The notes under the pieces were generated by a model. That model worked only from the letters and a program-made list of their open reading frames with translations, was not told where the DNA came from and searched no databases. Of a stretch of 39,659 nucleotides of DNA, positions 11,922 through 33,298 are shown piece after piece (positions within the stretch are counted from its first letter, which is position 1; each line of letters begins with the position of its first letter). Position numbers and translations under genes: made by a program. The DNA lies in the NCBI GenBank assembly GCA_002172535.2, contig NHFF02000027.1:1-39659 (forward strand), given 5' to 3'. Origin of the DNA: Gammaproteobacteria bacterium TMED104 (lineage in GTDB: Bacteria; Pseudomonadota; Gammaproteobacteria; Magnimaribacterales; D2472).

Positions 11922-11923
11922 AT

Positions 11924-12979: not shown

Positions 12980-12994
12980 TTTATTTCAATAATC

Positions 12995-13573: not shown

Positions 13574-13575
13574 TT

Positions 13576-14691: not shown

Positions 14692-15812
14692 AAGTATTAA
14701 CAGTAGTTGGTGCAAGACCGCAATTTATCAAGGCTGCAGCAGTCAGCAGGACTATCAAAGCTCACAACGATAGCTTGCTTGAACGGAAGAGCACACTCAT
14801 AGATGAAAAAATCATTCATACTGGTCAACATTATGATACCAATATGTCTAATATTTTTTTTGACGAACTTGACATACCGAGTCCTGATTTAAACTTATCG
14901 ATATCAAACCTTTCACACTCTTCAATGACTGCAAAAATGTTAGAAAAGCTAAGTGAATTATTCCTTCATGAGAGACCAGATATTGTTCTTTTATATGGGG
15001 ATACTAATAGCACACTAGCTGGTGCTATGGCAGCTGCACAAAATAAAATACCTATTGCTCATGTTGAGGCTGGCCTAAGATCAAATAACCACTTGATGCC
15101 TGAAGAAATTAATCGTGTGGTAACTGATAGGCTTTCTTCTTTACTTTTTTGTCCTACAACACTTGCAACTAACAACTTAACCAATGAGGGTTATCCATTT
15201 CGAATTAATGACACAAAGAAGCAGAAGATTATTCTTAGTGGTGATGTCATGTATGATGTACTAACTTATTACCAGGAGTCAGCATCAAAAATAAACTTGA
15301 TTAATGACATTCCGCTTGAAGATAAAAATCTAATTACTTGTACGATTCATCGAGAATCTAATACCAATGATAATGACTTATTAGAGGGGATATTAGATGA
15401 GCTAATAGATCTTTCAAAGACTTTTAAAATTATTTTTTTAGTTCATCCTAGACTCAAAAAATCTAAATTGATATCAAACAAAAAATTTCAAGATTCAAAT
15501 ATAATTCTGTCGGATCCATTGGGTTATTTAGAAATGCAAAGACTTTTAATGAGCTCTAAATTTGTAATAACAGACTCAGGAGGCCTCCAAAAGGAAGCTT
15601 ACCTGCATAAGATACCTTGCCTTACATTAAGAGATGAAACTGAATGGCAGGAAACAGTGACCAGTGGTTGGAATATTCTAACAAATCCAAGAGACAATAA
15701 ACTTGTTGATGCCTTAAATTCCTTTAAATTAGATTTAAATAATTACGAAAATTTCTATGGTGATGGAAATGCCTCTCAAAAAATAGTAGATGGTCTTATT
15801 GAGTATACTTAA
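14685..15812 (+). CDS. wbpI: UDP-GlcNAc3NAcA 2-epimerase, WbpI-like
   Basis: Non-hydrolysing UDP-sugar 2-epimerase expected to convert UDP-GlcNAc3NAcA to UDP-ManNAc3NAcA. Signature segments are VVGARPQFIKAAA (residues 7-19), LLYGDTNSTLAGAMAA (about 101-116), HVEAGLRSNN and MPEEINR (about 125-143), TCTIHRESNTND (about 218-229), DSGGLQKEAY (about 299-308) and LRDETEWQET (about 317-326). The length of 375 fits. The GTG start at 14685 overlaps the wbpE stop and gives the expected N-terminus MLKVLTVVGARP. A generic UDP-GlcNAc 2-epimerase (WecB) would look similar; gene order with wbpABDE supports the diacetamido-sugar role. Confidence 0.88.
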   Translation: MLKVLTVVGARPQFIKAAAVSRTIKAHNDSLLERKSTLIDEKIIHTGQHYDTNMSNIFFDELDIPSPDLNLSISNLSHSSMTAKMLEKLSELFLHERPDIVLLYGDTNSTLAGAMAAAQNKIPIAHVEAGLRSNNHLMPEEINRVVTDRLSSLLFCPTTLATNNLTNEGYPFRINDTKKQKIILSGDVMYDVLTYYQESASKINLINDIPLEDKNLITCTIHRESNTNDNDLLEGILDELIDLSKTFKIIFLVHPRLKKSKLISNKKFQDSNIILSDPLGYLEMQRLLMSSKFVITDSGGLQKEAYLHKIPCLTLRDETEWQETVTSGWNILTNPRDNKLVDALNSFKLDLNNYENFYGDGNASQKIVDGLIEYT

Positions 15813-15815
15813 CCT

Positions 15816-17003
15816 ATGAAAATCCCAATTTCAAAATCTATATTTTCTGGGGAGGACTTAGAAAAAGTTCTTGAGCCCCTCAATGATGGTTGGGTTGTGC
15901 AGGGTCCAAGAGTTGCTGAGTTTGAATCACTGTGGTCCAAATTTACTGAATCAAAATATTCTGTAGCAACTACATCTTGCACATCCGCTCTTTTTTTAGC
16001 ACTAGAGTGCCTTGATCTAAATCCAGATGACGAAGTCATAGTTCCAGCTTTGTCCTGGGTCTCAACTGCAAATATTGTTGAAAATGTAGGATCAAAAGTT
16101 ATTTTTTGTGATATTGATTTACAAACTCTAAATTTAGATATTGATAAGCTTAATTCTAAGATTACTTCAAAAACAAAAGTGATCATCCCTGTTCACTTGT
16201 TTGGATATCCGTGTGACATAAAACAAATTCAGAAAGTTATAGGTAATAAAAAAATAAAGATTATTGAAGATGCTGCATGTGGTTTTGGTTCATATCTTGA
16301 TAATGATCACGTAGGTAACCATGGAGAGTTTGGTTGTTTTAGCTTTCATCCTAGAAAAGCAATCTCGACAGGTGAGGGTGGAATGATTGTAACGAGCGAC
16401 CAAAATCATTACAAGAAACTTCTTTCACTAAGGGATCATGGTATGGATTATTCATCTAAATCATCAGCTACCAGTGATCCTTCATTTATGAAAGATCATA
16501 TCCATGCTGGATATAACTTTAGAATGACAGACATACAAGCAGCTTTAGGAATTTCTCAGTTAAAAAGGGCAGAAAATATTCTAAAATCTAGAGAAGAAAT
16601 ATCTAAGAAATATCATCTTTCGCTAGGAGGTTGTGATCAGTTAAGCATTCCTATTGTTAGAGAAAAAAACATTCAACATAGCTATCAAAGCTATGTATGT
16701 ATTTTCAAAGCATCCTTAGTTAAAGACGCTTTAGAAAATCATGATTATAAGTTGTTATTGCAAATTTCTGAAGAAAGAGATCGTTTCATGAAATATCTTG
16801 CTAATAAAGGAATTGGGACTAGGCCGCCAACACATGCGATACATACCCTTTCATATTACAAAGAAAAATATAAAATTAAATCTGAGGAGTATCCGAGGGC
16901 ATGGGCTGTAAATCTATGTGGTTTTAGCTTACCAATTTTCCCGGGATTAACATTTGATGATCAAGATTTTGTTATCAACAAGATTATTGATTACCTAAAA
17001 TAG
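15816..17003 (+). CDS. DegT/DnrJ/EryC1-family sugar aminotransferase (second one)
   Basis: PLP-dependent sugar aminotransferase of 395 residues, different in type from the WbpE-like protein. GWVVQGPRVAEFE (about residues 25-37), SCTSALFLALE (phosphate loop, about 54-64), IEDAACGFGSY (about 150-160) and CFSFHPRKAISTGEGGM (about 173-189, with the Schiff-base lysine) resemble perosamine-synthase-like and 4-amino-sugar aminotransferases that act on 4-keto-6-deoxy nucleotide sugars. An insertion around residues 290-330 (KASLVKDALENHDYKLLLQI region) adds length. It starts 3 bases after wbpI and 8 bases before an SDR gene, which may make its keto substrate. The true substrate is unknown. Confidence 0.82.
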   Translation: MKIPISKSIFSGEDLEKVLEPLNDGWVVQGPRVAEFESLWSKFTESKYSVATTSCTSALFLALECLDLNPDDEVIVPALSWVSTANIVENVGSKVIFCDIDLQTLNLDIDKLNSKITSKTKVIIPVHLFGYPCDIKQIQKVIGNKKIKIIEDAACGFGSYLDNDHVGNHGEFGCFSFHPRKAISTGEGGMIVTSDQNHYKKLLSLRDHGMDYSSKSSATSDPSFMKDHIHAGYNFRMTDIQAALGISQLKRAENILKSREEISKKYHLSLGGCDQLSIPIVREKNIQHSYQSYVCIFKASLVKDALENHDYKLLLQISEERDRFMKYLANKGIGTRPPTHAIHTLSYYKEKYKIKSEEYPRAWAVNLCGFSLPIFPGLTFDDQDFVINKIIDYLK

Positions 17004-17011
17004 GATTATAA

Positions 17012-17974
17012 ATGATTAAAAACAAAACAATTTTTATTACTGGCGGGGCTGGTTTTATTGCGAATAACTTAATTAAAAGGTTGGTTGATAATAATCAAAT
17101 AATTATCTTTGATAATTTTCATAGAGATACTTTTTCAAACAGCGAAATTGCTAATAACAGATCTATAAAAGTTATTAAGGGTGATGTGCTTGACTTTAAT
17201 CATGTAAAAGAATCAATGGAAGGATCTGATATAGTTATACATGCAGCAGGAATTGCAGGAATTGATACAGTCATAAGAAATCCTGTGCTCACTGGAAGAG
17301 TGAATGTAATAGGAACGGCAAATGTGTTGGAAGCAGCGTTGGCTAATAAAGTCAAAGACAGATTCATTGATTTTTCCACATCAGAAGTTTTTGGCCCAAT
17401 GGCTTTTAGATCATCAGAAACTGACTCTACTGTTGCTGGCTCTGCAGGCGAGGCAAGATGGACATATGCAGTTTCTAAATTAGCTGGAGAACATCTCGCA
17501 CATGCTTATTTTAAAGAATTTAAGCTCCCAACTGTCACAGTAAGACCTTTTAATATTTACGGACCAGGTCAGACTGGAGAAGGAGCTATTCAAATTTTTA
17601 TTAAAAAGGCTTTAAATAATGATCCAATAAGCATTGATGGAGACGGTAATCAAATTAGAGCCTGGTGTTATGTTGATGATTTTGTTGACTGTATAATTGA
17701 ATGTTTAGAAAATCCGTTAGCGATTGGCGAAAGTTTTAATATTGGTAACGCTAGAGCTGTAATCACAATATTGGGATTAGCACATACTGTCTGCAGAGTT
17801 TTAAATTCCTCATCTGAAATTATTCACGAGCCACCACTCTCTGCAGATATAGCTATTAGGATTCCAAGTGTAGAAAAGATGAATGAGTTATTGGGTGTAA
17901 AAGCGCAAATTGACTTGGAAGAAGGAATTATTAAAACCTCAGAGTGGATTAAAAATAACTTATTGGATAAGTAG
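17012..17974 (+). CDS. NAD-dependent sugar epimerase/dehydratase (extended SDR)
   Basis: Nucleotide-sugar-modifying enzyme of 320 residues. The Rossmann motif [14 protein letters not shown] is at about 8-21, IHAAG at about 76-80, FSTSEVFG at about 119-126 (the conserved catalytic Ser/Thr region) and YAVSK at about 147-151 (Tyr and Lys of the YxxxK pair). [10 protein letters not shown] and [11 protein letters not shown] are typical of the extended SDR family (UDP-glucose 4-epimerases, UDP-glucuronate decarboxylases, 4,6-dehydratases). TSEVFG leans to the dehydratase/decarboxylase side, but sequence alone does not choose. Placement between an aminotransferase and an acyltransferase suggests the three act on one sugar. 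Confidence 0.82.
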
Positions 17975-17984
17975 ACTTAAGCTA

Positions 17985-18491
17985 ATGAAAGATACATTTA
18001 ATAGAGAAGCTTTTATTGCAGAATTTAAAGCTTTAAGAGATGAAATGTATAAGAAATTTAAAAGACATGTATCGTTACAAGATTTATTCTCTGATAGATG
18101 GGAAACAGCAAAGTTCTATAATTTTGGCAAAGGTTCATCTTGCTATAACAACGTATTGATTATCGGAGATGTTAGTGTTGCAAATGACACATGGATAGGC
18201 CCTAATGTAATTTTAGATGGTTCAGGCGGGCTATCTATTGGAAGTCATTGCTCAATATCGGCAGGTGTTCAAATCTATACTCATGATACTGTAAAAAAAT
18301 CGACTTCCTTGGGCCAAGACCCTATTGAAAAAGGAGCAACTTCAATTGGAAATGGAGTATATATAGGACCGAATACCATTGTTCAGCAAGGAGTAAATAT
18401 TGGTGATAAAGCGATAATCGGGGCAATGAGTTTTATTAACAAAGATGTTCCTGCTGGAAAAAAAGTATTTGGAATACCTGCTCGTGACTAA
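17985..18491 (+). CDS. Left-handed beta-helix acyltransferase (probable sugar O- or N-acetyltransferase)
   Basis: A 168-residue hexapeptide-repeat protein. After a helical N-terminal segment (residues 1-45), repeats run through [38 protein letters not shown] and [19 protein letters not shown] to [18 protein letters not shown] and the ending KKVFGIPAR. The loop with YTHD contains the histidine that serves as base in maltose/galactoside acetyltransferase-like and WbbJ-like proteins. The acceptor sugar is unknown. I chose the ATG at 17985; a reading from 17910 would overlap the SDR gene by 65 bases. The gene starts 10 bases after the SDR stop. Confidence 0.83.
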
Positions 18492-18518
18492 ATCTGTATC
18501 AGATACATTTAAAATCCC

Positions 18519-19664
18519 ATGAAAAACATACAAATTTGTACGAAATGTATCTATGACGAAACTACTCCCTCAATAGAATTCAATGAATCTGGTATCTGTA
18601 ATTATTGCTTAATGATAGATCAGCTATCTGATGAGTATGGTACTGGCAGAAAAAAGGGGAAAAAGATATTTGAATCCATCATAACCAAAATCAAAAGTGA
18701 TGGGAGAAACAAAGAATATGACTGTGTGATTGGGGTAAGTGGTGGCACAGATTCGTCATACATGTTGCACATGATAAAAGAATGGGGTCTTCGCCCATTA
18801 GCTGTTCACTATGATAATACCTGGAATACATCAATAGCTACTCAAAACATCAAAGTTATGCTTGATAGGTTAGGAATTGATCTCTACACACATGTTGTTG
18901 ATAACAGTGAAGCAGATTCAATTTTTAAAGCATTTTTTTATGCTAGTGTTCCTGAGCTTGATGCTGCAACTGATCTAGCTCTAGCAGAAGTTCTTTATAG
19001 GGCAGCAAATCATGTTGGAGTTAAATACATTATAGAAGGCCACTCATTTAAAACAGAGGGAGTTGCTGCGTTAGGTGATGTTTATTTTGATGGTAAATAT
19101 ATAAGTTCAATCAATAAGAAATTTGGAACCAAAAAAATTAAGACCTATCCCCTTATGACTTTTATGAGGTTTATGAAGTGGGTTCTAGTAAAAAGAATAA
19201 AAAAAATAAGACCTTTATGGTATCTAGATTACTCAAAAGAATCTGCAAGAAAAATCTTAGAACAAGAGTATGGATGGAAATACTATGGTGGCCATCATCT
19301 AGAAAATAGGCTTACAGCTTTTGTTCATACTAATTATTTACCACAAAAATTTGGTCGCGATTTAAGAGATCTTACACTATCTGCAAAAGCAAGGTCTGGT
19401 ATCATTTCGCGCGAAGCAGCACTCAAAGAGTATAGACAATCAATTTCGTATGAACCTGGATTAGTTGACTATTTTAAAAAGAGGCTTGAAATTACTGACA
19501 ACGAATACAAACGTGTTATGAGCATGAAAACAAAAACTTTTAGGGATTATCCATCCTATAAAAAGCTCTTTGAAACCCTGAGGCCTTTATTCTACCTTCT
19601 ATATAAATCCAATCTTGTACCCAAATCATTTTATATAAAATATACTTCTAAAAATGAAATTTAA
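18519..19664 (+). CDS. wbpG: N-acetyl sugar amidotransferase, WbpG/WbuX-like
   Basis: Predicted to activate an acetamido group of a nucleotide sugar with ATP and replace its oxygen with ammonia, forming an acetamidino group. The N-terminus has two cysteine pairs, CTKC (about residues 7-10) and CNYC (about 27-30), a likely zinc site. The PP-loop VIGVSGGTDSSYML (about 71-84) binds ATP. EGHSFKTEGVA near 174 and HHLENRLTAF near 266 are conserved in WbpG/PseA-like proteins. The length of 381 is typical. It is followed by HisH- and HisF-like genes, the known partner set that supplies ammonia from glutamine in Pseudomonas O5-type and E. coli O-antigen loci. Confidence 0.92.
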   Translation: MKNIQICTKCIYDETTPSIEFNESGICNYCLMIDQLSDEYGTGRKKGKKIFESIITKIKSDGRNKEYDCVIGVSGGTDSSYMLHMIKEWGLRPLAVHYDNTWNTSIATQNIKVMLDRLGIDLYTHVVDNSEADSIFKAFFYASVPELDAATDLALAEVLYRAANHVGVKYIIEGHSFKTEGVAALGDVYFDGKYISSINKKFGTKKIKTYPLMTFMRFMKWVLVKRIKKIRPLWYLDYSKESARKILEQEYGWKYYGGHHLENRLTAFVHTNYLPQKFGRDLRDLTLSAKARSGIISREAALKEYRQSISYEPGLVDYFKKRLEITDNEYKRVMSMKTKTFRDYPSYKKLFETLRPLFYLLYKSNLVPKSFYIKYTSKNEI

Positions 19665-19682
19665 CCCACATTCTTTCCTAAA

Positions 19683-20288
19683 GTGATAGCGATAATAGAC
19701 TATGAAATGGGTAATTGCCGCTCTATTGTCAATATGCTTTATAGGCTAGGAATTAACTCAATAATTACCCGCGATCACGAAAAAATTAAGTCAGCTGATA
19801 AAATTATTCTTCCTGGAGTGGGCTCATTCGATGCTGCAATGGCAAATCTTAAAAAGCACAATTTAATTAACATTCTTAACCAAGAAGTTATGGAAAAAAA
19901 GTGCCCAATTTTAGGTATTTGCTTGGGTATGCAAATACTTACTGAGAAAAGTCAGGAAGGAAAGCTTAGGGGTTTAGGGTGGATTTCTGGAGAGGCAAAA
20001 AAGTTTAAAGCAAATCAAGATATAAAAGTTCCTCACATGGGTTGGAACTATGTTGAAGTTAATAAAAATAGTAAACTTTCTAATGGGTTATCCCATGATT
20101 CAAAATTCTATTTTGTTCATTCATATTACGTTAATGTCAAAAATAATGAGGAATCTTCAATGAAAACAAACTACTCCTTAGAATTTGATTCAGCAATTGA
20201 AAAAGATAATATTTTTGGTGTTCAGTTTCATCCAGAGAAAAGTCACAAGTACGGCATGCAGCTTTTAAAAAATTTTTCGGATGTTTAA
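19683..20288 (+). CDS. hisH: Glutamine amidotransferase subunit for sugar amidination, HisH2/WbuY-like
   Basis: Class I glutaminase homologous to HisH, here expected to deliver ammonia for the WbpG reaction. The triad is visible: the nucleophile in GICLGMQIL (Cys about residue 79) and His plus Glu in VQFHPEKSHKYG (about 181-192). The oxyanion-area LPGVGSFDAAM is near 43-53. The length of 201 matches HisH. The start is GTG at 19683, giving the normal MIAIIDYEMGN N-terminus. Its place inside a polysaccharide locus, between wbpG and a HisF-like gene with a changed active site, argues against a role in histidine synthesis. The stop shares one base with the next start. Confidence 0.9.
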   Translation: MIAIIDYEMGNCRSIVNMLYRLGINSIITRDHEKIKSADKIILPGVGSFDAAMANLKKHNLINILNQEVMEKKCPILGICLGMQILTEKSQEGKLRGLGWISGEAKKFKANQDIKVPHMGWNYVEVNKNSKLSNGLSHDSKFYFVHSYYVNVKNNEESSMKTNYSLEFDSAIEKDNIFGVQFHPEKSHKYGMQLLKNFSDV

Positions 20289-21058
20289 TGCTAAGGTCAA
20301 GAATAATACCGATCCTTCTACTTCGTGATAAGAGTTTAGTTAAAACAGTTAAATTTAATAAATTTTCATATATTGGAGATCCTTGCAATACCGTAAGAAT
20401 CTTCAATGAGCTTGAAGTAGATGAAATCTCTATTCTTGACATTGATGCAACCCTTCATAATAGAGATCCTAAGTATGATTTAATTGGCGACATTGCATCT
20501 GAGGCATTTATGCCTTTAAGTTATGGGGGGGGGATCAATTCGCTGGACAAAGCCAAAAAAATCTTTGATTTAGGTGTTGAAAAAGTAATTTTAAATAGTG
20601 CAGCAATAAATAATCCAGAACTCATTAGCAAAATAGTTGGAATATATGGCTCTCAGGCAGTAGTTGTCTCAATAGATGTTAAGCTGTCGTATTTAAGAAA
20701 TAAGTACTCCATATTTTCACATTCAGGCAAAAGAAGAACAAAACTTGATCTATTGTCTTGGGTACAAAGGTGTGAGTCTCTTGGGGCAGGTGAAATTCTT
20801 TTAAATTCAATTGATAGAGATGGAACTTGGGAAGGCTATGACCTAGATTTATTTAATATAATTCAAAAACAAATCAATATTCCCTTAATTGGATGTGGAG
20901 GAGCAAAAGATATTGATAATGTTGCAAAATTAATTAAAGAAACTAGATGCTCTGGCGCTGGGGTTGGCAGTATGGTTGTTTTTCAAAAAAAAGATAAAGG
21001 AGTTCTAATAAATTTCCCTAACCCAAAAATCATTGATAAAAAATTACACTTAAAATGA
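20288..21058 (+). CDS. hisF: HisF-like ammonia-channel subunit for sugar amidination, HisF2/WbuZ-like
   Basis: A (beta-alpha)8 barrel related to the HisF cyclase, 256 residues, expected to pair with the HisH-like protein and pass ammonia to WbpG. The first strand reads RIIPILLLRDKSLVKTVKF, where HisF has an Asp (Asp11 in Thermotoga HisF, in PCLDV); here the position is Leu, so the cyclase acid/base residue is missing. The second catalytic Asp region is kept (VVSIDVK, about 135-141), as are NSIDRDGTWEGYD (about 177-189) and the phosphate-binding PLSYGGGI and IGCGGAKD loops. This pattern fits the WbuZ family. The gene overlaps both neighbours (TAATG before, ATGA after). Confidence 0.9.
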   Translation: MLRSRIIPILLLRDKSLVKTVKFNKFSYIGDPCNTVRIFNELEVDEISILDIDATLHNRDPKYDLIGDIASEAFMPLSYGGGINSLDKAKKIFDLGVEKVILNSAAINNPELISKIVGIYGSQAVVVSIDVKLSYLRNKYSIFSHSGKRRTKLDLLSWVQRCESLGAGEILLNSIDRDGTWEGYDLDLFNIIQKQINIPLIGCGGAKDIDNVAKLIKETRCSGAGVGSMVVFQKKDKGVLINFPNPKIIDKKLHLK

Positions 21059-22236: not shown

Positions 22237-23541
22237 ATGTTTAAGAATTTTTTCAGAGATTCTGTTGGTTTTACTGTAGCAAATATTTGTGTCAAAGCAC
22301 TAAATATTATTTTAGTACCCATTTACATAAGATATTTATCCTTTGATGACTACGGTGCCTTTGAGTTGATTACAACGCTAACTGTAATATTTGTTGTGGT
22401 TGTAACTTTAGAGCTTACACAGTCAATAGTTAGATTTGTTCCTGATAATGAAAGTAATGAAATATTACAAAGAAGCTACATTAGTTCAGCAGTCCATACA
22501 ATTCTTTTTTCATGTTTAATTTTCGTTCTTTTGGTATATTTTTTCTCGCCATGGATTTCAAATTTTCTCTTTAAAACACTTTCTTATTCTCAGACAATTA
22601 AACTGATTGGTCCTATCATTGCTCTTCAAGCATTAAATTATTCTATTGCAGTAACCTTCAGATCAAAGAGAGAATTTTCTTCTGCAATCTTCCATTCTCT
22701 CATGGTTGCATCTTTTATTGGAGGATTCGGTATTGTCTTTTTAATTTCTTCTTCAGGTAACTTGAATCAATTTTTATTAGGACAAATAATCGGAGGTTCT
22801 GTTGCTGTTTTGATTGGTTTTTATAAGATAAGAAGTTTAATTTTTTATAAAATCAATTGGCTAATTGTAAAACAAATAGTTAGCTTTTCTTTTCCGTTAA
22901 TTCTCTCTGGGATCGCTATTCATTTATCTACTTTCGCTGATAGGTTAATTATTAATGAATTGCTTTCATTAGAGTCATTGGCTGTATATGGTATAGCAGC
23001 AAAAGCAGCCTCATTAGTAACGATTGTTATATCAGGAGTGCAGGGCACACTTGCGCCTCACTTTATCTCCTCCTGGAATTCTTCGTCAGGGCTAAGGAGT
23101 CTCAGCCAGATTTTTTTTATTTACTTAATTCTGAGTATTTTTCTTTTATTTTTTTTATATGTCTTTGGCGAACATATTATTATATTTCTAGGTACTAATA
23201 AGGCAGCAAGCGGGGTGGATGTCTTATTAATTTTGGCAAGCTCAGCTGTCATAAATGGACTAAATATCTTTCTTTTTGGATTAATAAAATCATTGAAGAC
23301 ATCAATACTTTCATTGATTTATTTATGCACTGCAATACTAAATATAGTTTTAAATTATTATTTTATTTCTGAGTTTGGAATATTGGGAGCTGCCACTGCT
23401 ACACTAATTTCAACATCAATTGGTTTTTTAGTTCACTTTTATTTTTCCTCTAAACATTTGAAACTTCCATTTTCCTCATTTATTCCCATTTGCTTTATAA
23501 TCACAATGCTTAGTTTTAATATTCTCTATATATATCTCTAA
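22237..23541 (+). CDS. wzx: Polysaccharide flippase, Wzx-like (MOP superfamily)
   Basis: An integral membrane protein of 434 residues with about 12 hydrophobic helices and few charged segments between them. It starts FFRDSVGFTVANICVKALNIIL, the usual Wzx/RfbX opening, and contains SIVRFVPDN (about 68-76) and ADRLIINELLSLESLAVYGIAAK (split at about 235-257), a pattern shared by polysaccharide transporters of the PF01943/PF13440 type. Expected to move undecaprenyl-linked repeat units across the inner membrane for a Wzy-type polymerase. It lies 30 bases after the glycosyltransferase. Confidence 0.88.
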   Translation: MFKNFFRDSVGFTVANICVKALNIILVPIYIRYLSFDDYGAFELITTLTVIFVVVVTLELTQSIVRFVPDNESNEILQRSYISSAVHTILFSCLIFVLLVYFFSPWISNFLFKTLSYSQTIKLIGPIIALQALNYSIAVTFRSKREFSSAIFHSLMVASFIGGFGIVFLISSSGNLNQFLLGQIIGGSVAVLIGFYKIRSLIFYKINWLIVKQIVSFSFPLILSGIAIHLSTFADRLIINELLSLESLAVYGIAAKAASLVTIVISGVQGTLAPHFISSWNSSSGLRSLSQIFFIYLILSIFLLFFLYVFGEHIIIFLGTNKAASGVDVLLILASSAVINGLNIFLFGLIKSLKTSILSLIYLCTAILNIVLNYYFISEFGILGAATATLISTSIGFLVHFYFSSKHLKLPFSSFIPICFIITMLSFNILYIYL

Positions 23542-24609: not shown

Positions 24610-25557
24610 ATGGAAACAGATAAAAGAATATTAGACTTAAATAAATTTATAAAAATTTTATTTGAGACAAAAGAATTATTTTTTTTCGCGCTTTTCATCA
24701 TATTATCAATAACAGTTCTGTATTCGCTTTCACTAAAAAATATATACAGAGCTGATGCTCTTTTAGTTCCTACATCAGGCTCTTCATCATCATCTTCATC
24801 TTCAAATGAAACCGCTTCTCAGCTTGCATCATTGGCTGGAATAAGTATTGGCCAAGGTAATAGCGCTAGTGATAAAGGAACACAAGCATTAAAAATTTTA
24901 GAGTCAAGGGACTTTATTATAAATTTCTTAAAAGATTATGACTTAGTTCACATTATTTATGATGAAAAAAGCTGGAATTCCTCCAAAAAAGTACTAAATG
25001 TATCTAGTGACTATGATGAAAAAAAAGGGACTTGGATTAGAAATCAGCCTTCCGAAATGCAAACATTCAGAGAGTTTACAGGAAACCATTTGAAAGTGGT
25101 TCATGATGTTGACTCTGGATTCATATCCATCTCAGTTGAGCATCTTTCTCCAATTCATGCAAATCTAATACTTAAGAATATTATTATTGGAATAAATGAT
25201 CACATGAGAGAAATAGATCTTGATTATAGTAATAATGCAATTGAATATTTAACTGCTCAACTAAGATTAACTAATGTTAGTGAGGTAAGAAATGTTTTCT
25301 CAAATGTAATTGAAGATCAGATTCAAACTAAAATGCTTGCAAACATATCTGATGAATATATCTTAAGAACCATTGATCCTCCAAGAGTTCCAGACAGAAA
25401 GTTTAAGCCAAGACGATCAGCTATTTTAGCTGTTACTTTTGCGTTAACTTTCTTTAGTTTTATATTTTTATCATTAATTTTATTTATACAGAATAAAAAA
25501 ATGCACTTTAAGATTTTCCCGCCTAGAATTAACATTTTGAGTTCTGATCAAGATTAG
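24610..25557 (+). CDS. wzz: Chain-length determinant protein, Wzz-like polysaccharide co-polymerase
   Basis: Inner-membrane protein that sets the modal length of the Wzy polymer. The 315-residue layout is cytoplasmic N-terminus, TM1 (about 22-43), a long periplasmic domain and TM2 (about 274-296), followed by a short basic tail. Before TM2 is the proline-rich motif PPRVPDRKFKPRRS (about 257-270), a Wzz hallmark. A serine run (about residues 56-64) follows TM1, encoded by repeated TCA/TCT triplets. There is no C-terminal kinase domain, so it is a class 1 (O-antigen type) co-polymerase, not a Wzc-like one. The gap of 54 bases upstream contains a candidate -10 box. Confidence 0.88.
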   Translation: METDKRILDLNKFIKILFETKELFFFALFIILSITVLYSLSLKNIYRADALLVPTSGSSSSSSSSNETASQLASLAGISIGQGNSASDKGTQALKILESRDFIINFLKDYDLVHIIYDEKSWNSSKKVLNVSSDYDEKKGTWIRNQPSEMQTFREFTGNHLKVVHDVDSGFISISVEHLSPIHANLILKNIIIGINDHMREIDLDYSNNAIEYLTAQLRLTNVSEVRNVFSNVIEDQIQTKMLANISDEYILRTIDPPRVPDRKFKPRRSAILAVTFALTFFSFIFLSLILFIQNKKMHFKIFPPRINILSSDQD

Positions 25558-25569
25558 AGTGTCTGAAGC

Positions 25570-26805
25570 GTGAGTTTATCAGTAAATAGACTCCTTGGAT
25601 TAAGCATTGTTGGCGGAGCAACTCTATCTCTATTTACTTCGCTGAGATTTTCTTTTTTTGGACTCGGAGAACTGTTGATAATTTTTAGTTTTTTTTTAAC
25701 AAATTTTTCTAGAATACCACCCATCAATCTCTCAAATTATCCATTTACTATTTTTTGGGCTGTCTACATTACCGCGTCTCTTATGGGAGCATTTTTAAAT
25801 CTAACTATACTTAATAATCAAACTGGGACAACAGCAAAAATGAGCCTTGATTTGTTTGCATATATTTTTATTTTTGCTACTGCTTTCACTCTTGAAGCAA
25901 ACATAAATCAAAAATCAATAAACCCTTGGCAGTTACTTAAAGGATTCATCATTCTTTCATCAATTATCTTGACCATTCTTCTTCTTATTAGTTTTTATAC
26001 ACCAAGTTTATTAGGTTTAGCTCTCATGTACGATGAAACAAGTTTTGCTCCACTGGTAACCAACGTTCATCAGATAACAATGTTTTATATAATCCTTCCA
26101 TTTTTATGTATAGGTATTTTGATGAAAGAGTATGAGATTTATCCTGAACAGAATAGTATTTTTAAAACCATTCTTCTATTAACTCTCTTTTGTACAACCA
26201 TTTATATGGCGTTGACCGCTCAGGCAACAAAAGCCGTGGTTGGATTTTGGCTTGGAGTTGCATGCCTATTTCTTTTCTACTTTATTTCAAAGTCTGGAAT
26301 TATTTTAAGATCACTAATCATATATTCATTAATAATTTGTATTGTATTTATTTTTTATTATTTTGATCTGTTAAGAATTTTTTCGGATTTTTTTGTAGAT
26401 GCAGATGGCATTGATGGTGCTAGAGCACATCTGTATGGTGGGGCACTGAATTTGATTTCTGAGTCACCAATTTTAGGAAGGGGTCCTGGTGGACATATTT
26501 GGAAGGGCGAGCTTTATTGGGATGTACACCAAACATTTCTAACTGCTTTTATTCAGGCAGGAATTATTGGATTTGTAAGCTTAATGCTATTAATTTACAG
26601 ATTTGCAAGAGATATTTTTAACGAGAGTATTTTTCTAGCATCCATGGCTCCATTAGCTATTTACGCCCTAGGTGGGGATATATTAAGAAGATTGCCTGTT
26701 TGGATTCTTCTAATCTTGATAATGTATGCGGTGAGGCATGTTCGCCTAGAATCATATAAGAAAACCGATAATACGCCTCACCAAATGACTACTTTTAACA
26801 CTTAA
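25570..26805 (+). CDS. O-antigen polymerase/ligase-family membrane protein (Wzy or WaaL)
   Basis: A 411-residue protein with about 10-12 membrane segments. Near the C-terminal third is a long periplasmic-type loop with RAHLYGGALNLISESPILG (about 280-298), GRGPGGHIW and DVHQTFLTAFIQAGIIGF (about 316-333). The pattern of Arg, a Gly-x-Gly-Pro-Gly motif and a downstream His in the loop is that of the Wzy_C/O-antigen ligase family (PF04932). Polymerase and ligase cannot be separated by sequence alone. Because the locus has wzx and wzz but no other polymerase candidate, I favour Wzy. The start is GTG at 25570, 12 bases after wzz. Confidence 0.8.
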   Translation: MSLSVNRLLGLSIVGGATLSLFTSLRFSFFGLGELLIIFSFFLTNFSRIPPINLSNYPFTIFWAVYITASLMGAFLNLTILNNQTGTTAKMSLDLFAYIFIFATAFTLEANINQKSINPWQLLKGFIILSSIILTILLLISFYTPSLLGLALMYDETSFAPLVTNVHQITMFYIILPFLCIGILMKEYEIYPEQNSIFKTILLLTLFCTTIYMALTAQATKAVVGFWLGVACLFLFYFISKSGIILRSLIIYSLIICIVFIFYYFDLLRIFSDFFVDADGIDGARAHLYGGALNLISESPILGRGPGGHIWKGELYWDVHQTFLTAFIQAGIIGFVSLMLLIYRFARDIFNESIFLASMAPLAIYALGGDILRRLPVWILLILIMYAVRHVRLESYKKTDNTPHQMTTFNT

Positions 26806-26827: not shown

Positions 26828-29578
26828 ATGCAATCTCATAAACTTATATCATTGTCGGTTTTAGTAACGATTTTTGTTCTAACAAATCACTTACATGCTC
26901 AATCTCCTGAAATCCAAAAATCTTTAGAAAGGGCTTTAGGCACTTCTTCACAAGCTCGAATGAATCAATCCCTTCAAGAGGAAAGGGAAGTTGTAAATAT
27001 TGATAACTCTGTTAAACAATATGATGAGTTAGACAGGCTTGTTGAGGAACAAAAATATTTGGAGAGACAGATTGAAGCTCGAAAAGAACTAGCAACTAAA
27101 TTATGTTTCTTAGATGATAAGGCATGTTACCTAATAGATAATTATTCTAAATTTAAATCACAAGAATCAAGTGAATTATTGCTTGATGATCTAGAACTTT
27201 TCGGGAAAGATTTATTTACGGGTTATCCACTTAACTTTGATGTTGTAGATAATACACCTGTACCTGATTTTTATATATTAGGATATGGAGATGTTTTGAC
27301 TGTAAACGTCCTTGGTCCCAAACCCTCCTTAGATTTTTATCCTATTGGAAGAGACGGAACTCTTAATTTGCCAGAGTTTGGATCAATTTATATACAAAAC
27401 CTTACTTTCAAAGAAGCACAAGAAAAAATTTCTAACTTTATTTCTTCAAAAGGAATAGGAGCAGATGTTCAAATTTCCATAAAAAAATTAAAAAATATTA
27501 CAGTTAATGTGGGTGGATCTACTCGTTATCCAGGTACGTATAAAATTTCTAGTCAATCGTCTGCCTTGAATGTTATTGCTGCAGTTGGAGGTCTAGTAGG
27601 AAATCCTTCATTGAGAAATGTAAAAATAACTTCAGCTGATGGATCAGTTGTTTATGAGGATTTATATGACAGCTTAATATTTGGAACTGCATCAGGCACA
27701 ACCTATCTAAAAAGTGGAGATATTATTAACATTCCTCCAGCTGAAAATTTTGTATATCTGCTTGGCAACGTAAACAGACAAGCAATATATGAATTTAAGG
27801 AGGGAGAGACTACCTCTGATCTTGTAAAAATGGGGCTAGGCTTCAAACCAAATACTGACGATTTCATGGTTGTAAAAAGGCTGAATGAGCTTGGATCTTA
27901 TGTTTCACTGATGGCGACCTCTTCAAACCCTGTTAAGTTAAAAAAAGGAGATATTTTAGAAGTTAACCAGTATGAAAATCGGTTTGTAGATGGCATCGAG
28001 ATTTACGGTGCAATAAGAAGGCCTGGTAAATATCAACTCTCTAATGATGCTAAGCTTTCTTCTATCATTTCCTTGGAAAATGATTTAATTGAATCAACAT
28101 ATCTTCCAATCTTTGTAGTTCAACGCTTCAATCCATTGTCAAACAATTGGAAGTACAAATTTTACAATCTAATGAATAGAAATGAATTCAATGAAATCAA
28201 TATTCTCCCAAAAGATAGAATATTCTTTCTATCAAAAAATGATATTAATTTCCTAAATTCATTTCAGCTTGCTAATTTTTTAAAATCAGCAAGTCAGAAT
28301 TATTTTCAGGCCAGAAACTCAGTTTATGATAACTTTAACAGCGAGCCAGCATCCATGGACTCCAAAGAAGAAAATTCAAACACTATTTCTAGCTTAAAAA
28401 TTATTAATGAAAGAATTACAAATCTTGAGAGCGAAGTTGCAATTAGTTCATCCCAGCAAAAAACAAGTAATGATGTAATATGTTTTGATAATCTTTCAGC
28501 AACGTTAACACAGAATTTTCTAAAGGAGATATATCAAAAAACTTCATCATTTCTCCCAAAAAATAACTCAAGTTGCACAGATTTATTTTCAAAACATAGT
28601 TTTTTATTAGCTGCAGTTCTTCAAAATACTAAAGTTGTTTTTGGTGATGTAGATTCTCCTGGAATATATCCTGTTGGAGGGAAAGTTTTTATAAATGGAA
28701 TTTTTGATTACGTTCATGCATCGGGAGATTATGAAGACTTTAATCTTTCAATTAACAATGTCATTACAAATCAAAAAAATGCAATTATAGATTCATCAAA
28801 TCTTAGCTTCTTAACCTTTAACAAGGTCAATCAGGATCAATTAAGCAGATTTGTTCACTTGTCTGGTGAATTTGTTAATCCAGGAACCTATCCTATTTTT
28901 GACGGAGATACCGTTACTGATATATATGAAAGGGCTGGTGGTTTTAAGGAAACTGCTTTTCCTAGTGGTGCAATCTTTACTAGAGAATATCTCAAGCAGG
29001 AAGAGGAAAATACACTCAAGCTTTTCAGGAATAATCTTTCAGATATCTTAACAAACGCTATATCGAATGGTTATTTGCAGCAAAATCCAACAGACTTAAT
29101 GGTGCTTATGGATGTGATGGCTCAAGCAAATTCCGTTGCTGTAAGTGGTAGGCTTGTTACCGACTTACGTCCTAGTATAAAAAATTCATCAAAGGATTTG
29201 ACACTGCTTGATGGAGATATGATATTTATGCCACGTAAAACCAATACCATTAATGTAAGCGGTCAAGTTTTAAATCCCACCTCACTAGTTTACTCTCCTG
29301 ATTCTAAACCTTATGACTATATAAATTCTGCTGGTGGTCTAAAAGATGGCGCAGATAAATCAAGTATCTATGTTATTAACCCTAATGGTGAAACCTTTAA
29401 TTTGAGAGCATCTCGTTCACTAGGATTCAAGGCCAAGCATTCAATAATGCCGGGCGCTACTATAATTGTACCTAGAAAGGCCAGAAACTTAGATGGATTA
29501 GGATTGGTAGAAAGGATTGCTCCTACAATTGCAAGTCTATCTGTTACCGCAGCATCTATTGCCGCAATACAAGATTAA
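26828..29578 (+). CDS. Large Wza-like outer-membrane polysaccharide export protein with multiple SLBB domains
   Basis: Predicted periplasmic/outer-membrane export channel component, 916 residues. A signal peptide covers about 1-24 (LHAQ cleavage, no lipobox cysteine). A coiled-coil-like segment lies about 45-90. The polysaccharide-export domain (PF02563 type) starts near 146 with DFYILGYGDVLTVNV. SLBB-like repeats with the GxVxxPGxY theme begin near 223, 309, 390, 602, 676 and 807. A Ser/Asn/Gln-rich linker with coiled-coil character lies about 500-550. E. coli Wza is about 380 residues with two or three SLBB units, so this is an enlarged form of the kind found beside yjbH genes. The absence of lipidation is unlike Wza. 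Confidence 0.87.
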   Translation: MQSHKLISLSVLVTIFVLTNHLHAQSPEIQKSLERALGTSSQARMNQSLQEEREVVNIDNSVKQYDELDRLVEEQKYLERQIEARKELATKLCFLDDKACYLIDNYSKFKSQESSELLLDDLELFGKDLFTGYPLNFDVVDNTPVPDFYILGYGDVLTVNVLGPKPSLDFYPIGRDGTLNLPEFGSIYIQNLTFKEAQEKISNFISSKGIGADVQISIKKLKNITVNVGGSTRYPGTYKISSQSSALNVIAAVGGLVGNPSLRNVKITSADGSVVYEDLYDSLIFGTASGTTYLKSGDIINIPPAENFVYLLGNVNRQAIYEFKEGETTSDLVKMGLGFKPNTDDFMVVKRLNELGSYVSLMATSSNPVKLKKGDILEVNQYENRFVDGIEIYGAIRRPGKYQLSNDAKLSSIISLENDLIESTYLPIFVVQRFNPLSNNWKYKFYNLMNRNEFNEINILPKDRIFFLSKNDINFLNSFQLANFLKSASQNYFQARNSVYDNFNSEPASMDSKEENSNTISSLKIINERITNLESEVAISSSQQKTSNDVICFDNLSATLTQNFLKEIYQKTSSFLPKNNSSCTDLFSKHSFLLAAVLQNTKVVFGDVDSPGIYPVGGKVFINGIFDYVHASGDYEDFNLSINNVITNQKNAIIDSSNLSFLTFNKVNQDQLSRFVHLSGEFVNPGTYPIFDGDTVTDIYERAGGFKETAFPSGAIFTREYLKQEEENTLKLFRNNLSDILTNAISNGYLQQNPTDLMVLMDVMAQANSVAVSGRLVTDLRPSIKNSSKDLTLLDGDMIFMPRKTNTINVSGQVLNPTSLVYSPDSKPYDYINSAGGLKDGADKSSIYVINPNGETFNLRASRSLGFKAKHSIMPGATIIVPRKARNLDGLGLVERIAPTIASLSVTAASIAAIQD

Positions 29579-29591
29579 TTTGTTTTTTTGA

Positions 29592-31748
29592 ATGATCACT
29601 ACCAATATACTAAGGCTAATTTTAGTCTTATTTTTTGTTGGTCAGATTAATGCATCGAGACTAGATTACTTATTCCCTTACAATAATCCGTCATTTTCTG
29701 ATTATGGCACATTAGGACTAATACAAATGCCAAATTCAAGATTTCTTGAAGAGGGTTCTTTAGGCTTTGTTTGGTCTAGAAATGAGCCTTACATGCGTGG
29801 CGGTATTGTTGCGTATCCATTTAATTGGTTTGAGATCATTTATAAATATACGGATATCAATGATGCCCTATATTCAAATGTTAAAGCTTATAGTGGCGGT
29901 CAATCACTTAAAGATAAGGGTTTTGATGTCAAATTCAGATTGCTTGAGGAATCGTATTATCTTCCCTCAATATCATTTGGATTTAGAGATTTTGGAGGTA
30001 CAAATAGATTTCAATCAGAATATCTAGTGGCAAGCAAGTTTATTAATAATTTTGATTTTACTCTTGGCGTCGGATGGGGAGTAATGTCGGGAGGTAATTT
30101 CAGTTATAAAAATCCGCTAACTGATCTGGCTGATACTTTTATAGAAAGAGCCGCAAATGATGGAACCGGAGGTACTTTCTCAACTAATGCATGGCTAAGC
30201 GGAAGAAATATTGGTCTTTTTGGAGGAGTTGAATGGATGCTCCCAAATGCAAAAGGACATCGAATTAAGCTTGAATTTGATTCAAATAACTATGATAAAG
30301 ATTACCTTCCATTAGAGGGAAAGAGACCAATTAAAGCTGATACTAATGTGAATATTGGATACACAGTTCCGATTAATAACCTATTACAACTAAACTTTGG
30401 CATAACAAGAGGAAATACTTTTCAATTTGGATTTTCATTTACACATAATTATGGCCAAAGAACACCATTCTTTAATAAAACTGATAAGCCTAAGAGGGTA
30501 AAAAATGCAGAGATTATAAAATCTCTTAATTCTGAAAATAAACAATATCTTTATCTTACTTCTTTAAGAGATCTTCAGCTCGAGGGAATTTATCTTCAAT
30601 ATGCAAAACTAGAGGATGAAACATACACAGTTCGATATTCACATTCAAAATACTACAATGCAACCACTGCGATTGGTAGAGCTGCTCGCATTATTGACCA
30701 AATTGCGCCTGATGATGTTAAAACTATTAATTTAGGAGAAATTAACGGCCCATTTATAAATTTTGATGCTGAAATAGATAGGCATAGCTTCAATCTCAAT
30801 GCTAAAAGCCAAGATTACTCCACATCTTTTTCTACTATTAATTTTAAATCCAAGAAATTAGATGTAAATGAATATGAATTTAAACCTAAAGCTAAATTTC
30901 CTTTTTGGTCATATTCCTTTGGTCCTGCTCTAAGATCTCACATTGGAGGGCCAGATGGATTTGCTCTCGGTCAGTTATGGTTGAGAGGAGATGGCAGAAT
31001 TGTCTTCGATAGAAATAACTCTATTACAGGATCAGTCGGTGTTGGTGTATATGATAATTTTGACGAACTTAAACAGAAATCCAATAGTATTTTGCCACAC
31101 GTTAGAACTGAAATCGTGCAATATTTGAAGGGTACAAGAGACTACAATATTACTAGAATACAGTATGACAATATTCAAAAACCCTCCAGTAATTTCTATA
31201 CAAGATTTTCTGTTGGTATTTTTGAAGAAATGTTTGGTGGTATAGGTGGTGAAATTTTATATCGACCATTTAACTCAAATTTTGGCGTAGGTGTTGATAT
31301 GTATTGGGTTAAACAGAGAGATTATGATGGCATGTTAGATTTTATTGATTATTCAGTGGTTACCGGGCACACAACATTATATATTCAGGAACCAAGAACA
31401 AATGTATTGGTAAGGTTAATTGGCGGGAGATATTTAGCAAAAGATTCAGGTGTTACTTTGGATGTATCTAGAAAATTTAAATCAGGCCTTAGTATGGGAA
31501 TTTTTGCAAGTAAAACAGATATCAGTCAGGAAGAATTTGGTGAGGGAAGCTTTGATAAAGGATTCTATTTCAATATGCCTCTAGAGATATTTTTCCAAAG
31601 TTACAACAAGGCTGTTACTGGTTATGGATTAAGGCCGATAACTCGAGATGGTGCCCAAAGGCTAATTACGGGATATGATTTATGGGGTGTAACTAATTCT
31701 GCATCTTTCAATACACTTAATAGAACAAAAGATTATATTTATGATTAA
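29592..31748 (+). CDS. yjbH: YjbH/GfcD-like outer-membrane exopolysaccharide protein
   Basis: A 718-residue protein with a signal peptide (about 1-22, QINAS). The mature N-terminus, with NNPSFSDYGTLGLIQMPNSR (about 30-49), is the DUF940/YjbH signature (family: GxxGLxxxPTAR-like). Next come GGIVAYPFNWFEIIYKYTD and FRLLEESYYLPSISFGFRDF, alternating amphipathic strands expected for a beta-barrel. The second half is also rich in alternating aromatic strands, and the protein ends in a long C-terminal tail. In E. coli, YjbH/GfcD forms part of the yjbEFGH/gfc operons for exopolysaccharide or group 4 capsule. It lies 13 bases after the SLBB gene and overlaps the lipoprotein gene by 8 bases. Confidence 0.85.
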   Translation: MITTNILRLILVLFFVGQINASRLDYLFPYNNPSFSDYGTLGLIQMPNSRFLEEGSLGFVWSRNEPYMRGGIVAYPFNWFEIIYKYTDINDALYSNVKAYSGGQSLKDKGFDVKFRLLEESYYLPSISFGFRDFGGTNRFQSEYLVASKFINNFDFTLGVGWGVMSGGNFSYKNPLTDLADTFIERAANDGTGGTFSTNAWLSGRNIGLFGGVEWMLPNAKGHRIKLEFDSNNYDKDYLPLEGKRPIKADTNVNIGYTVPINNLLQLNFGITRGNTFQFGFSFTHNYGQRTPFFNKTDKPKRVKNAEIIKSLNSENKQYLYLTSLRDLQLEGIYLQYAKLEDETYTVRYSHSKYYNATTAIGRAARIIDQIAPDDVKTINLGEINGPFINFDAEIDRHSFNLNAKSQDYSTSFSTINFKSKKLDVNEYEFKPKAKFPFWSYSFGPALRSHIGGPDGFALGQLWLRGDGRIVFDRNNSITGSVGVGVYDNFDELKQKSNSILPHVRTEIVQYLKGTRDYNITRIQYDNIQKPSSNFYTRFSVGIFEEMFGGIGGEILYRPFNSNFGVGVDMYWVKQRDYDGMLDFIDYSVVTGHTTLYIQEPRTNVLVRLIGGRYLAKDSGVTLDVSRKFKSGLSMGIFASKTDISQEEFGEGSFDKGFYFNMPLEIFFQSYNKAVTGYGLRPITRDGAQRLITGYDLWGVTNSASFNTLNRTKDYIYD

Positions 31749-32343
31749 GAGTTTTCATACAGCCGTTCTTTGCCTGATAATAATTTCTTCTTGCACTACC
31801 GGAAGCATTACCTTTCAAAATTTATATACAAGCATTAAGCCAATTGTAAATCCTGATAAATCAATCCCTGACGAATACAATGAAGATTTTCCATACGCTT
31901 ATGCATCAGTAAGGGTAGGTAGAGGCCAAATAATTTATGTGGTTTTATCAGAAGCAGATAATAAAGTTCTAAGATGGATTTCTAATGACGGTTTTGAAAT
32001 CAAGACTATTAATGGGAAGATCATTGCTTCTAACGGGCTGGAAAAAAATATTTCTTTTTTAAATGCAAATCATGAACTTGCCTTATCAAATATAAAAGAA
32101 ATGAATTTTGTTGTGAGTATTTCTTCTGATACTCATACTGCTTTTGATGCAAATATGAATTTAATAAGAAAGAAAAAAGATGAGTTTATAGAAGAAGAAT
32201 TTTCAATCAAGTCAATCAAATGGAGCGGCAAGAATAAATTTTATTTAAATAACGAAGGTAAAGTTTATAGATCAATCAATTTCATCAATCCCTTGATGCC
32301 AAGAGTAGAGATGAATTTTTATAAATTACACAAGGATCACTAA
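31741..32343 (+). CDS. yjbF: YjbF/GfcB-like lipoprotein
   Basis: A 200-residue predicted lipoprotein. The signal peptide ends in the lipobox IISSC (Cys about residue 18) followed by TTGS. The body reads like YjbF/GfcB proteins: a long beta-rich domain with YAYASVRVGRGQIIYVVLSE (about 52-71), LRWISNDGFEIKTINGKII (about 78-96), a region of paired strands, then a C-terminal SIKWSGKNKFYLNNEG segment. In E. coli the corresponding gene lies in the same operon as yjbH. It is the last gene of the long + strand run; its TAA sits next to the A-tract and hairpin that form the terminator of the opposite gene. Confidence 0.8.
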   Translation: MIKSFHTAVLCLIIISSCTTGSITFQNLYTSIKPIVNPDKSIPDEYNEDFPYAYASVRVGRGQIIYVVLSEADNKVLRWISNDGFEIKTINGKIIASNGLEKNISFLNANHELALSNIKEMNFVVSISSDTHTAFDANMNLIRKKKDEFIEEEFSIKSIKWSGKNKFYLNNEGKVYRSINFINPLMPRVEMNFYKLHKDH

Positions 32344-32369
32344 AAAAAATGGCCCATTATTGGGCCATT
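32342..32369 (-). terminator. Rho-independent terminator of the minus-strand low-complexity gene
   Basis: A 9-bp perfect stem (AATGGCCCA / TGGGCCATT, 32348-32356 with 32361-32369) closes a TTAT loop. Read on the minus strand it is followed by a run of eight T (32349-32342, partly within the stem), as an intrinsic terminator needs. On the + strand no T-run follows, so it is at best a weak terminator for yjbF. Confidence 0.8.
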
Positions 32370-32388: not shown

Positions 32389-33048
32389 TTATTGAGTAGT
32401 AGCAATAGTCGCTGTAGAGGTTGATGATATCTCAACTTCAACTTCAGTTGGAACAACAACTGTCTCTTCAACTATCTCTTCTATCTCTTGAAGTACTTCC
32501 GTATCAACAACGACCTCAACAACTTCTTCAACTATGATTTCGTTGCCTTGTGCATCAACTTCTACGATTACAGTGCCTGCACCTGTATTTGTTTCAACGG
32601 TTGCAGTAGCTGTTTGAGTAGCTGTAGCTGTTGTAGTAGCAGCAGCAGTAGCTGTAGCCGTTTGAGTGGCTGTCGCTGTAGATGTCGATGTTGAAGTAGC
32701 TGTAGCTGTTGAAGTAGAAGTTACAGGGAAACTAATTATTGTAGTTGGCGCTGGAGTAGGCGCTGGAGTAGGAGATGGTTGTGGCCCTAATGTAGGCGCT
32801 GGAGTAGGTGCAGGTGCAGCAGCTCCTCCGCCTCCAGAGTCTGCAGCAGCGGCAATAGCAGCAGCAGCAGCAACAGCAGCAGCAATAGCTCCAGCAGATA
32901 GTGATCCTTGAGCTTCTTCTTGAGCTACAGAATCATCATTAGTAGCAGCGCCTGAATCGTTAGATTCTTGAGCTACAAGGTTATTTCCAAATAGTGCCGC
33001 TAAAAAACCAGTAAGTAATACGTTAAACTTATTTTTAATCTTTGCCAT
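32389..33048 (-). CDS. Secreted low-complexity Ala/Pro/Thr/Glu-rich protein, YjbE/GfcA-like in layout
   Basis: A 219-residue protein made almost wholly of biased sequence. A signal peptide (1-26, cleavage after LVA) is followed by an acidic linker (27-48). Next come an Ala-rich hydrophobic segment (about 50-69), a GGGG turn (72-75), a Pro/Ala/Thr stretch with APTPAPT-type repeats (about 77-103), a Thr/Ser/Ala stretch (about 109-150), a Val/Glu stretch (about 158-197) and a Ser/Thr tail. No enzyme motif exists. The reading strand is supported by a signal peptide, a Shine-Dalgarno site, a TATAAT box and a strong terminator. E. coli YjbE and GfcA, encoded beside yjbFGH/gfcBCD, have the same order of signal peptide, small hydrophobic segment, Gly turn and Thr-rich tail; here the gene is convergent with the yjbH-yjbF pair. 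Homology is not proven. Confidence 0.75.
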   Translation of the reverse strand: MAKIKNKFNVLLTGFLAALFGNNLVAQESNDSGAATNDDSVAQEEAQGSLSAGAIAAAVAAAAAIAAAADSGGGGAAAPAPTPAPTLGPQPSPTPAPTPAPTTIISFPVTSTSTATATSTSTSTATATQTATATAAATTTATATQTATATVETNTGAGTVIVEVDAQGNEIIVEEVVEVVVDTEVLQEIEEIVEETVVVPTEVEVEISSTSTATIATTQ

Positions 33049-33104: not shown

Positions 33105-33110
33105 ATTATA
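33105..33110 (-). promoter_or_regulatory. Candidate -10 box of the low-complexity protein gene
   Basis: The minus strand reads TATAAT here, about 57 bases before the start codon. The upstream hexamer at the proper spacing (ATGTAC) is a poor -35. The 173-base gap to tRNA-Pro is very A/T-rich and must hold promoters for both directions. Confidence 0.45.
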
Positions 33111-33199
33111 TCTTTTTATGAGATTTTGTACATATTTTATGTTTTTTTTTAACAATAAAATAAACTAAATTCTTTTTAGTTAATTATTTAGTGTAATAC

Positions 33200-33221: not shown

Positions 33222-33298
33222 CGGGATGTAGCGCAGCCTGGTAGCGCACCACACTGGGGGTGTGGTGGTCGTCGGTTCAAATCCGGCCATCCCGACCA
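33222..33298 (+). tRNA. tRNA-Pro (GGG)
   Basis: A complete cloverleaf of 77 bases with encoded CCA. The acceptor CGGGATG pairs with CATCCCG. The anticodon stem CCACA/TGTGG encloses the loop CTGGGGG, so the anticodon is GGG at 33256-33258, with G at position 37 as expected for tRNA-Pro. The T arm is GTCGG (33271-33275) with CCGGC (33283-33287), with a G-C pair next to one mismatch-tolerant end. It stands alone, with its 3' end 1 base from the stop of the convergent oxidoreductase gene. Confidence 0.97.

Follow-up and report, generated by a model that had tools for sequence, protein, structure and literature searches.

The 219-residue protein encoded on the minus strand at 32389-33048 of the window (the whole 39,659-nucleotide stretch of DNA analysed here) belongs to a recognised but so far unexplained kind of protein, of which it is an enlarged form. 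This kind is typified by GfcA and YjbE, two proteins encoded in operons for capsule and exopolysaccharide export, whose function is unknown according to published work. Comparison of homologous sequences indicates that the open reading frame (ORF) is a real conserved protein, and its membership of the YjbE/GfcA-like class is well supported by profile searches and genomic position. The comparison separates a constant part, consisting of a helix, a turn and a Thr-rich end, from a freely varying tail; it thereby moves the protein from an orphan to a class in which specific residues can be tested, and provides a concrete candidate for the polypeptide proposed as the substrate of YjbH/GfcD. Its link to YjbH extends across both Gamma- and Betaproteobacteria, and most of the class is without a Pfam or NCBIfam model. 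As numerous bacteria encode relatives next to this export channel, the role is testable.

The gene and its export locus

The window belongs to a 1.4 Mb, AT-rich genome; among named organisms, SAR86 cluster bacteria are its nearest relatives at this locus. The plus strand ahead of the gene is a Wzx/Wzy-type polysaccharide locus, and the gene is convergent with an OPX-yjbH-yjbF export block:

22237..23541 (+): Wzx flippase
24610..25557 (+): Wzz-like chain-length protein, score slightly below the curated cut-off
25570..26805 (+): Wzy_C-type polymerase/ligase
26828..29578 (+): OPX export protein carrying SLBB domains and, at its C terminus, a GfcC-like domain (PF06251); sequence match to Wza
29592..31748 (+): YjbH/GfcD, PF06082 E=4e-180; AlphaFold2 predicts a 12-strand barrel, a middle domain and a 13-strand barrel
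31741..32343 (+): YjbF/GfcB lipoprotein, PF11102 E=1e-15, sequence match to PDB 2in5 (E. coli YmcC = GfcB)
32348..32369 (-): terminator-like hairpin 3' of the 219-residue gene, right in position, at chance level in number
32389..33048 (-): predicted YjbE/GfcA-like secreted protein, 219 residues, an ORF with homologues in the genus and order
33105..33132 (-): sigma-70-like box upstream of the 219-residue gene, number not above chance

The arrangement convergent with yjbH and yjbF, proposed in an earlier sequence-only reading of the window, is borne out by the Pfam matches of both neighbours and by their opposite strand. The window therefore has counterparts of GfcB, of GfcD and, as a fusion with OPX, of GfcC; the 219-residue protein is the candidate GfcA. 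Nucleotide-sugar genes occupy 10623-21058 and encode a UDP-sugar dehydrogenase, an oxidoreductase, an acetyltransferase, an aminotransferase and a WecB epimerase, followed by WbuX, HisH-like and AglZ/HisF2 acetamidino proteins; by analogy with P. aeruginosa O5, the polymer of this locus may hold an acetamidino-mannuronic acid. A tRNA-Pro (GGG) at 33222-33298 lies between the 219-residue gene and a minus-strand gene for a TIGR03619-type luciferase-like monooxygenase.

The AlphaFold2 model of the SAR86 YjbH (pLDDT 82) contains 12 strands in residues 56-286 and 13 in residues 438-680, with a middle domain between the two sets. By prediction, this YjbH consists of two barrels of 12 and 13 strands, as described for GfcD by Fruet et al., who reported a two-barrel architecture with a lateral opening (PMC11494523). 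A Foldseek search of the model against the PDB returned generic barrels with TM-scores of 0.1-0.2 and no match to FapF or PgaA, and the poor superposition probably arises because two barrels were aligned as one.

The ORF begins with ATG and reads as the sequence-only reading had described it, with a signal peptide, an Ala segment, a Gly4 turn, and Pro/Thr, Thr/Ser/Ala and Val/Glu blocks:

32968..33048 (-): Sec signal peptide MAKIKNKFNVLLTGFLAALFGNNLVAQ, residues 1-27, from the sequence; AlphaFold2 helix at 2-20
32842..32901 (-): Ala-rich helix LSAGAIAAAVAAAAAIAAAA, residues 50-69, from homologue alignment, codon differences and AlphaFold2
32824..32841 (-): DSGGGG turn, residues 70-75, from sequence and homologues
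32740..32814 (-): Pro/Thr/Ala block, residues 79-103, from sequence and homologues
32599..32721 (-): Thr/Ser/Ala block, residues 110-150, from sequence and homologues
32425..32580 (-): Val/Glu block, residues 157-208, from sequence and homologues
32392..32424 (-): Thr/Ser C-terminal end STSTATIATTQ, from the sequence

Cleavage of the signal peptide probably occurs after Q27 or nearby. The AlphaFold2 model of the protein is disordered (mean pLDDT 49), with helices only at 2-20 and 52-68; Pfam and NCBIfam scans gave only low-complexity noise, and a PDB sequence search gave no match. The signal peptide, the Ala helix and an acidic or glycine turn (DSGGGG, DDDDD or DSGSGG) are constant among the SAR86 homologues, and within the helix GSLSAGAIAAAVAAAAAIAAAA the residues S51, G53, I55, A56, A60 and A64 are invariant in 14 homologues. 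The part after the turn varies, and total length runs from 123 residues (L073) to 788 residues (L069). The 788-residue version (L069:5974-8340) carries YVDPNTGGNAPGYLGDYVT-type repeats and has no significant Pfam match.

The sequence-only reading had also assigned the gene its own promoter-like box and a strong terminator. Both are in the right position, as a TGTACA-16-TATAAT box at 33132-33105 and a 9-pair hairpin with a T-run past the stop codon at 32369-32348, but their numbers do not exceed those in shuffled sequence (8 against 6.7 expected in the box scan and 1 against 1.0 in the hairpin scan), so they are plausible by position only.

Conservation and association with yjbH

A helix-only profile of 43 columns was searched in 41 genomes of the order and found exactly one copy in 15 and zero in the other 26. 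YjbH was detected with PF06082 in 25 of the 41, as a single strong full-length match in 17 and as a divergent two-piece match in eight. One copy thus lies beside YjbH in 15 of the 17 genomes with an ordinary full-length YjbH and in none of the other 24; since most of these sequences went into building the profile, presence in the 15 is no test, whereas absence from the 24 without an ordinary YjbH is. In all 15 genomes the gene adjoins yjbF/yjbH and is convergent with them, so the expectation that close relatives would carry such a gene near yjbH holds. One exception (G036) has a TPEP/GTGT-tailed protein, adjoining the OPX gene, that is cut by a contig end, and no candidate partner was seen in the other (G039), which has an ordinary YjbH. 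Across 21 helix codons from 13 SAR86 genomes, pairwise differences were 855 synonymous against 198 non-synonymous, indicating that the Ala run is conserved at the protein level rather than being simply a repeat in the DNA. A search of relatives with the single sequence had returned many false matches to Pro/Thr repeats, which the helix-only profile removed.

Beyond the order, a GTDB survey with a YjbH alignment yielded 80 loci, mostly from Gamma- and Betaproteobacteria, which together with two E. coli loci provided 5882 ORFs from 82 YjbH loci. A layout detector, requiring a signal peptide, a 17-residue uncharged window of Ala/Gly/Val/Ile/Leu/Ser/Thr, and Thr/Ser-rich last 14 residues, matched 66 of these ORFs, all beside yjbH and none elsewhere: 57 upstream on the yjbH strand, seven convergent (SAR86) and two upstream and divergent. 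Partners at L100 and L104 also lie outside the operon. The detector thresholds were chosen after examples had been seen, so its sensitivity is tuned, whereas the absence of off-target matches is not. At least eight more loci (L088, L089, L090, L105, L098, L115, L122 and L162) carry a protein that falls below a threshold. Twenty control stretches from YjbH-negative genomes (349 kb, 1527 ORFs) gave no matches, and the 77 ORFs of the window gave the 219-residue protein and one false match, a Wzy-like protein.

An even class-wide sample contained YjbH in 15 of 229 genomes. Of the 14 remaining after exclusion of the present genome, roughly six carry a recognisable partner (L167, L168, L169, L171, L173 and L177), and none was recognisable at the YjbH loci L170, L172, L174 and L175, suggesting that YjbH may not always need a partner. 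On these counts, ordinary YjbH has a strong tie to the protein and diverged types have a weaker one.

The class is defined by a signal peptide, an uncharged Ala/Gly/Val helix, a Gly/Asp turn and a Thr/Ser end, together with a gene beside yjbH (gfcD) and yjbF (gfcB), and the 219-residue protein has all of these. It departs from a usual, non-defining trait, the place of the first gene in the yjbEFGH/gfcABCD operon, as the SAR86 gene is convergent and lies at the far end. One yjbH (L169:10752-11466) has two tandem YjbE/GfcA-like genes of 96 and 110 residues. Enlarged versions occur in other gammaproteobacteria at L171:6190-6792 (200 residues), L162:2719-3405 (228 residues) and L168:11746-12261 (171 residues), where the enlargement lies on either side of the helix. 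Proteins at L099, L107, L110, L113, L115, L118, L155 and L165 finish with TTGTTGTTGT and a single further residue that is basic or polar; ends of this type occur in many distant members, and such conservation suggests that the C terminus is recognised.

Profile links to GfcA and YjbE

To search for relatives by profile, a SAR86-only helix profile was run on the 5882 ORFs. Its only non-SAR86 matches at E<0.01 were from Idiomarina (8e-4) and Burkholderiales (9e-3), each encoded in the gfcA position, upstream of yjbH, and iteration gained Pseudidiomarina, Halopseudomonas and others, all at the gfcA/yjbE position. A second profile, made from 28 sequences from outside Enterobacterales, was searched against 3266 ORFs of enterobacterial loci and gave 16 matches at E<0.02, every one of them in the yjbE/gfcA position; GfcA (E=0.0029) and YjbE (E=0.0037) were among them, and the first false match came at E=1.0. 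At 12.5 bits or more, it detected 15 of the 38 real sequences from Enterobacterales; no reversed sequence scored that well, nor did any of 1900 shuffles preserving signal peptide and composition. In the whole genomes of the enterobacterial loci the same profile found the gene in 10 of 18, as the top match in eight; in one, a giant 4877-residue frame outscored the gene.

The SAR86-only profile did not find enterobacterial members directly. Comparison of the SAR86 and enterobacterial alignments with hhalign aligned only the signal peptides, and comparison of A4 with the enterobacterial alignments gave a 4-column match. The Pfam YjbE model (PF11106, gathering score) matched neither the 219-residue protein nor anything else in its own genome; as it misses GfcA and the tested intermediates too, the model is narrow, and by sequence comparison the class is far wider than it. 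NCBIfam has no model for the class. Descent shared with GfcA and YjbE is thus indicated by profiles through intermediates only, direct comparison having failed, and class membership rests on intermediates, controls and position.

These results confirm the observation made in the sequence-only reading and support the main part of its interpretation; its further idea of O-glycosylation or fibre formation gained no support from them. The proposal of an enlarged YjbE/GfcA stands on the yjbH neighbourhood and on the profile chain through intermediates, without a direct link from the SAR86-only profile, hhalign or Pfam YjbE. Likewise, the expected recovery of YjbE and GfcA by a profile was achieved with the non-Enterobacterales profile but not with the SAR86-only profile.

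Possible roles and comparison with known systems

Larson et al. described GfcA as Ser/Thr-rich, proposed that it might receive an O-antigen modification and be directed to GfcD as an export substrate, and noted that GfcB resembles LolA (PMC8592465). The N-barrel of GfcD/YjbH has been matched to the polypeptide transporter FapF, and GfcD has been suggested to secrete a capsule-stabilising or capsule-anchoring polypeptide, an amyloidogenic substrate that was left unnamed (PMC9603273). The YjbE/GfcA-like class is the obvious candidate for the polypeptide that GfcD is proposed to secrete.

The reading favoured here, which we regard as evenly poised, is that the 219-residue protein is an enlarged YjbE/GfcA-like member and the secreted partner of the two-barrel YjbH/GfcD, held by its helix and with a tail that holds or carries polysaccharide. 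We infer its mechanism, including secretion, anchoring and glycosylation, as follows. Sec would export the protein and the signal peptide would be removed; the Ala helix, with its small-residue face (A56/A60/A64) and marginal hydrophobicity, would pass the inner membrane and be held at the outer membrane or in YjbH, helped by the LolA-like YjbF; and the disordered Thr/Pro/Ser tail, which SAR86 would have lengthened, would reach the cell surface and hold or covalently carry the exported polysaccharide. On an approximate residue scale, the membrane-insertion score of the helix is about 0, whereas the better Wzx, Wzy and Wzz segments score between -2 and -6, and no positive charges follow the helix, suggesting that it would cross the inner membrane more readily and bind at the outer one. 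If Ig-type proteins of sister SAR86 genera occupy the same slot, the part after the helix would by analogy face outside. The earlier suggestion that such proteins are a little-characterised group of matrix or surface partners agrees with this reading. More tentatively, and with rather less than even confidence, YjbE/GfcA-like proteins may be both polypeptide cargo and anchor of a YjbH/GfcD translocon that co-exports protein and polysaccharide, in this view Enterobacterales would have minimal forms and SAR86 extended ones, with certain SAR86 genera loading Ig-type surface domains into the same slot.

The match of the N-barrel to FapF and the proposed amyloidogenic substrate (PMC9603273), along with the disordered, low-complexity AlphaFold2 model, would also suit a matrix or fibre protein released through the N-terminal barrel of YjbH, as FapC is through FapF, and co-exported without being anchored. 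This is unlikely, given that the best-conserved part is the helix and turn and not a repeat, that no Pfam amyloid family model matched, and that Foldseek did not recover FapF. A periplasmic or inner-membrane regulator of polymer length or export, anchored in the inner membrane by the Ala helix, would agree with the annotation of GfcA as an inner-membrane protein and with the hydrophobic segment of 17-20 residues in every member; however, that segment is marginal for insertion on the approximate scale and lacks following positive charges, and sister genera have Ig/HYR/LapB-type surface domains in the same place, so that we consider such a regulator rather improbable.

It is also conceivable that the resemblance to YjbE/GfcA is convergent, a low-complexity secreted protein having come to lie beside an export locus without common descent. 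The helix and tail are compositionally simple and no direct profile match joins the SAR86 and enterobacterial proteins, but shuffled and reversed sequences fail to score, intermediates bridge the gap, and the matches are confined to one genomic position, all of which make convergence very improbable.

Among known systems, FapC/FapF of Pseudomonas amyloid secretion likewise pairs a low-complexity polypeptide with an outer-membrane barrel (PMC9603273), but showed no sequence or fold match in this analysis. SAR86 genera g5-g8 (L077-L084) encode secreted Ig/HYR proteins directly downstream of a divergent YjbH, for example at L084:4478-5875. These resemble the 219-residue protein in their signal peptide, in a hydrophobic segment that closes with an acidic turn, in a GTGTGT tail and in their position beside yjbH, but differ in length (371-935 residues), in a coiled N-terminal part and in Ig-like domains (Ig/HYR/cadherin); the class profile does not match them, and they are therefore analogues by layout only.

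The closest bridge to SAR86 is formed by the Idiomarina/Pseudidiomarina proteins at the gfcA position (L131, L152 and L153). That of L131 shares GGISAGAIAAGVAAAAVAAAAIAEANDDDD followed by Pro and Thr runs, whereas all three are about 110-120 residues long and encoded upstream on the yjbH strand. E. coli YjbE (PF11106) shares a signal peptide, a small-residue hydrophobic stretch, a GGGDG turn and a Thr tail, and is encoded with yjbF and yjbH; unlike the SAR86 protein, which its Pfam model misses, it has 80 residues and is the first gene of its operon. E. coli GfcA (YmcD) of the group 4 capsule has the helix GVAAGAVGTATVVGVATAVGVATLAVVAA, then NDSGDGGS and a Thr tail, and differs in its length of 101 residues and in a Thr-rich block ahead of the helix. 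GfcA is needed for capsule (PMC8592465, PMC3853201), and an EPEC gfcA mutant is unencapsulated (PMC3853201).
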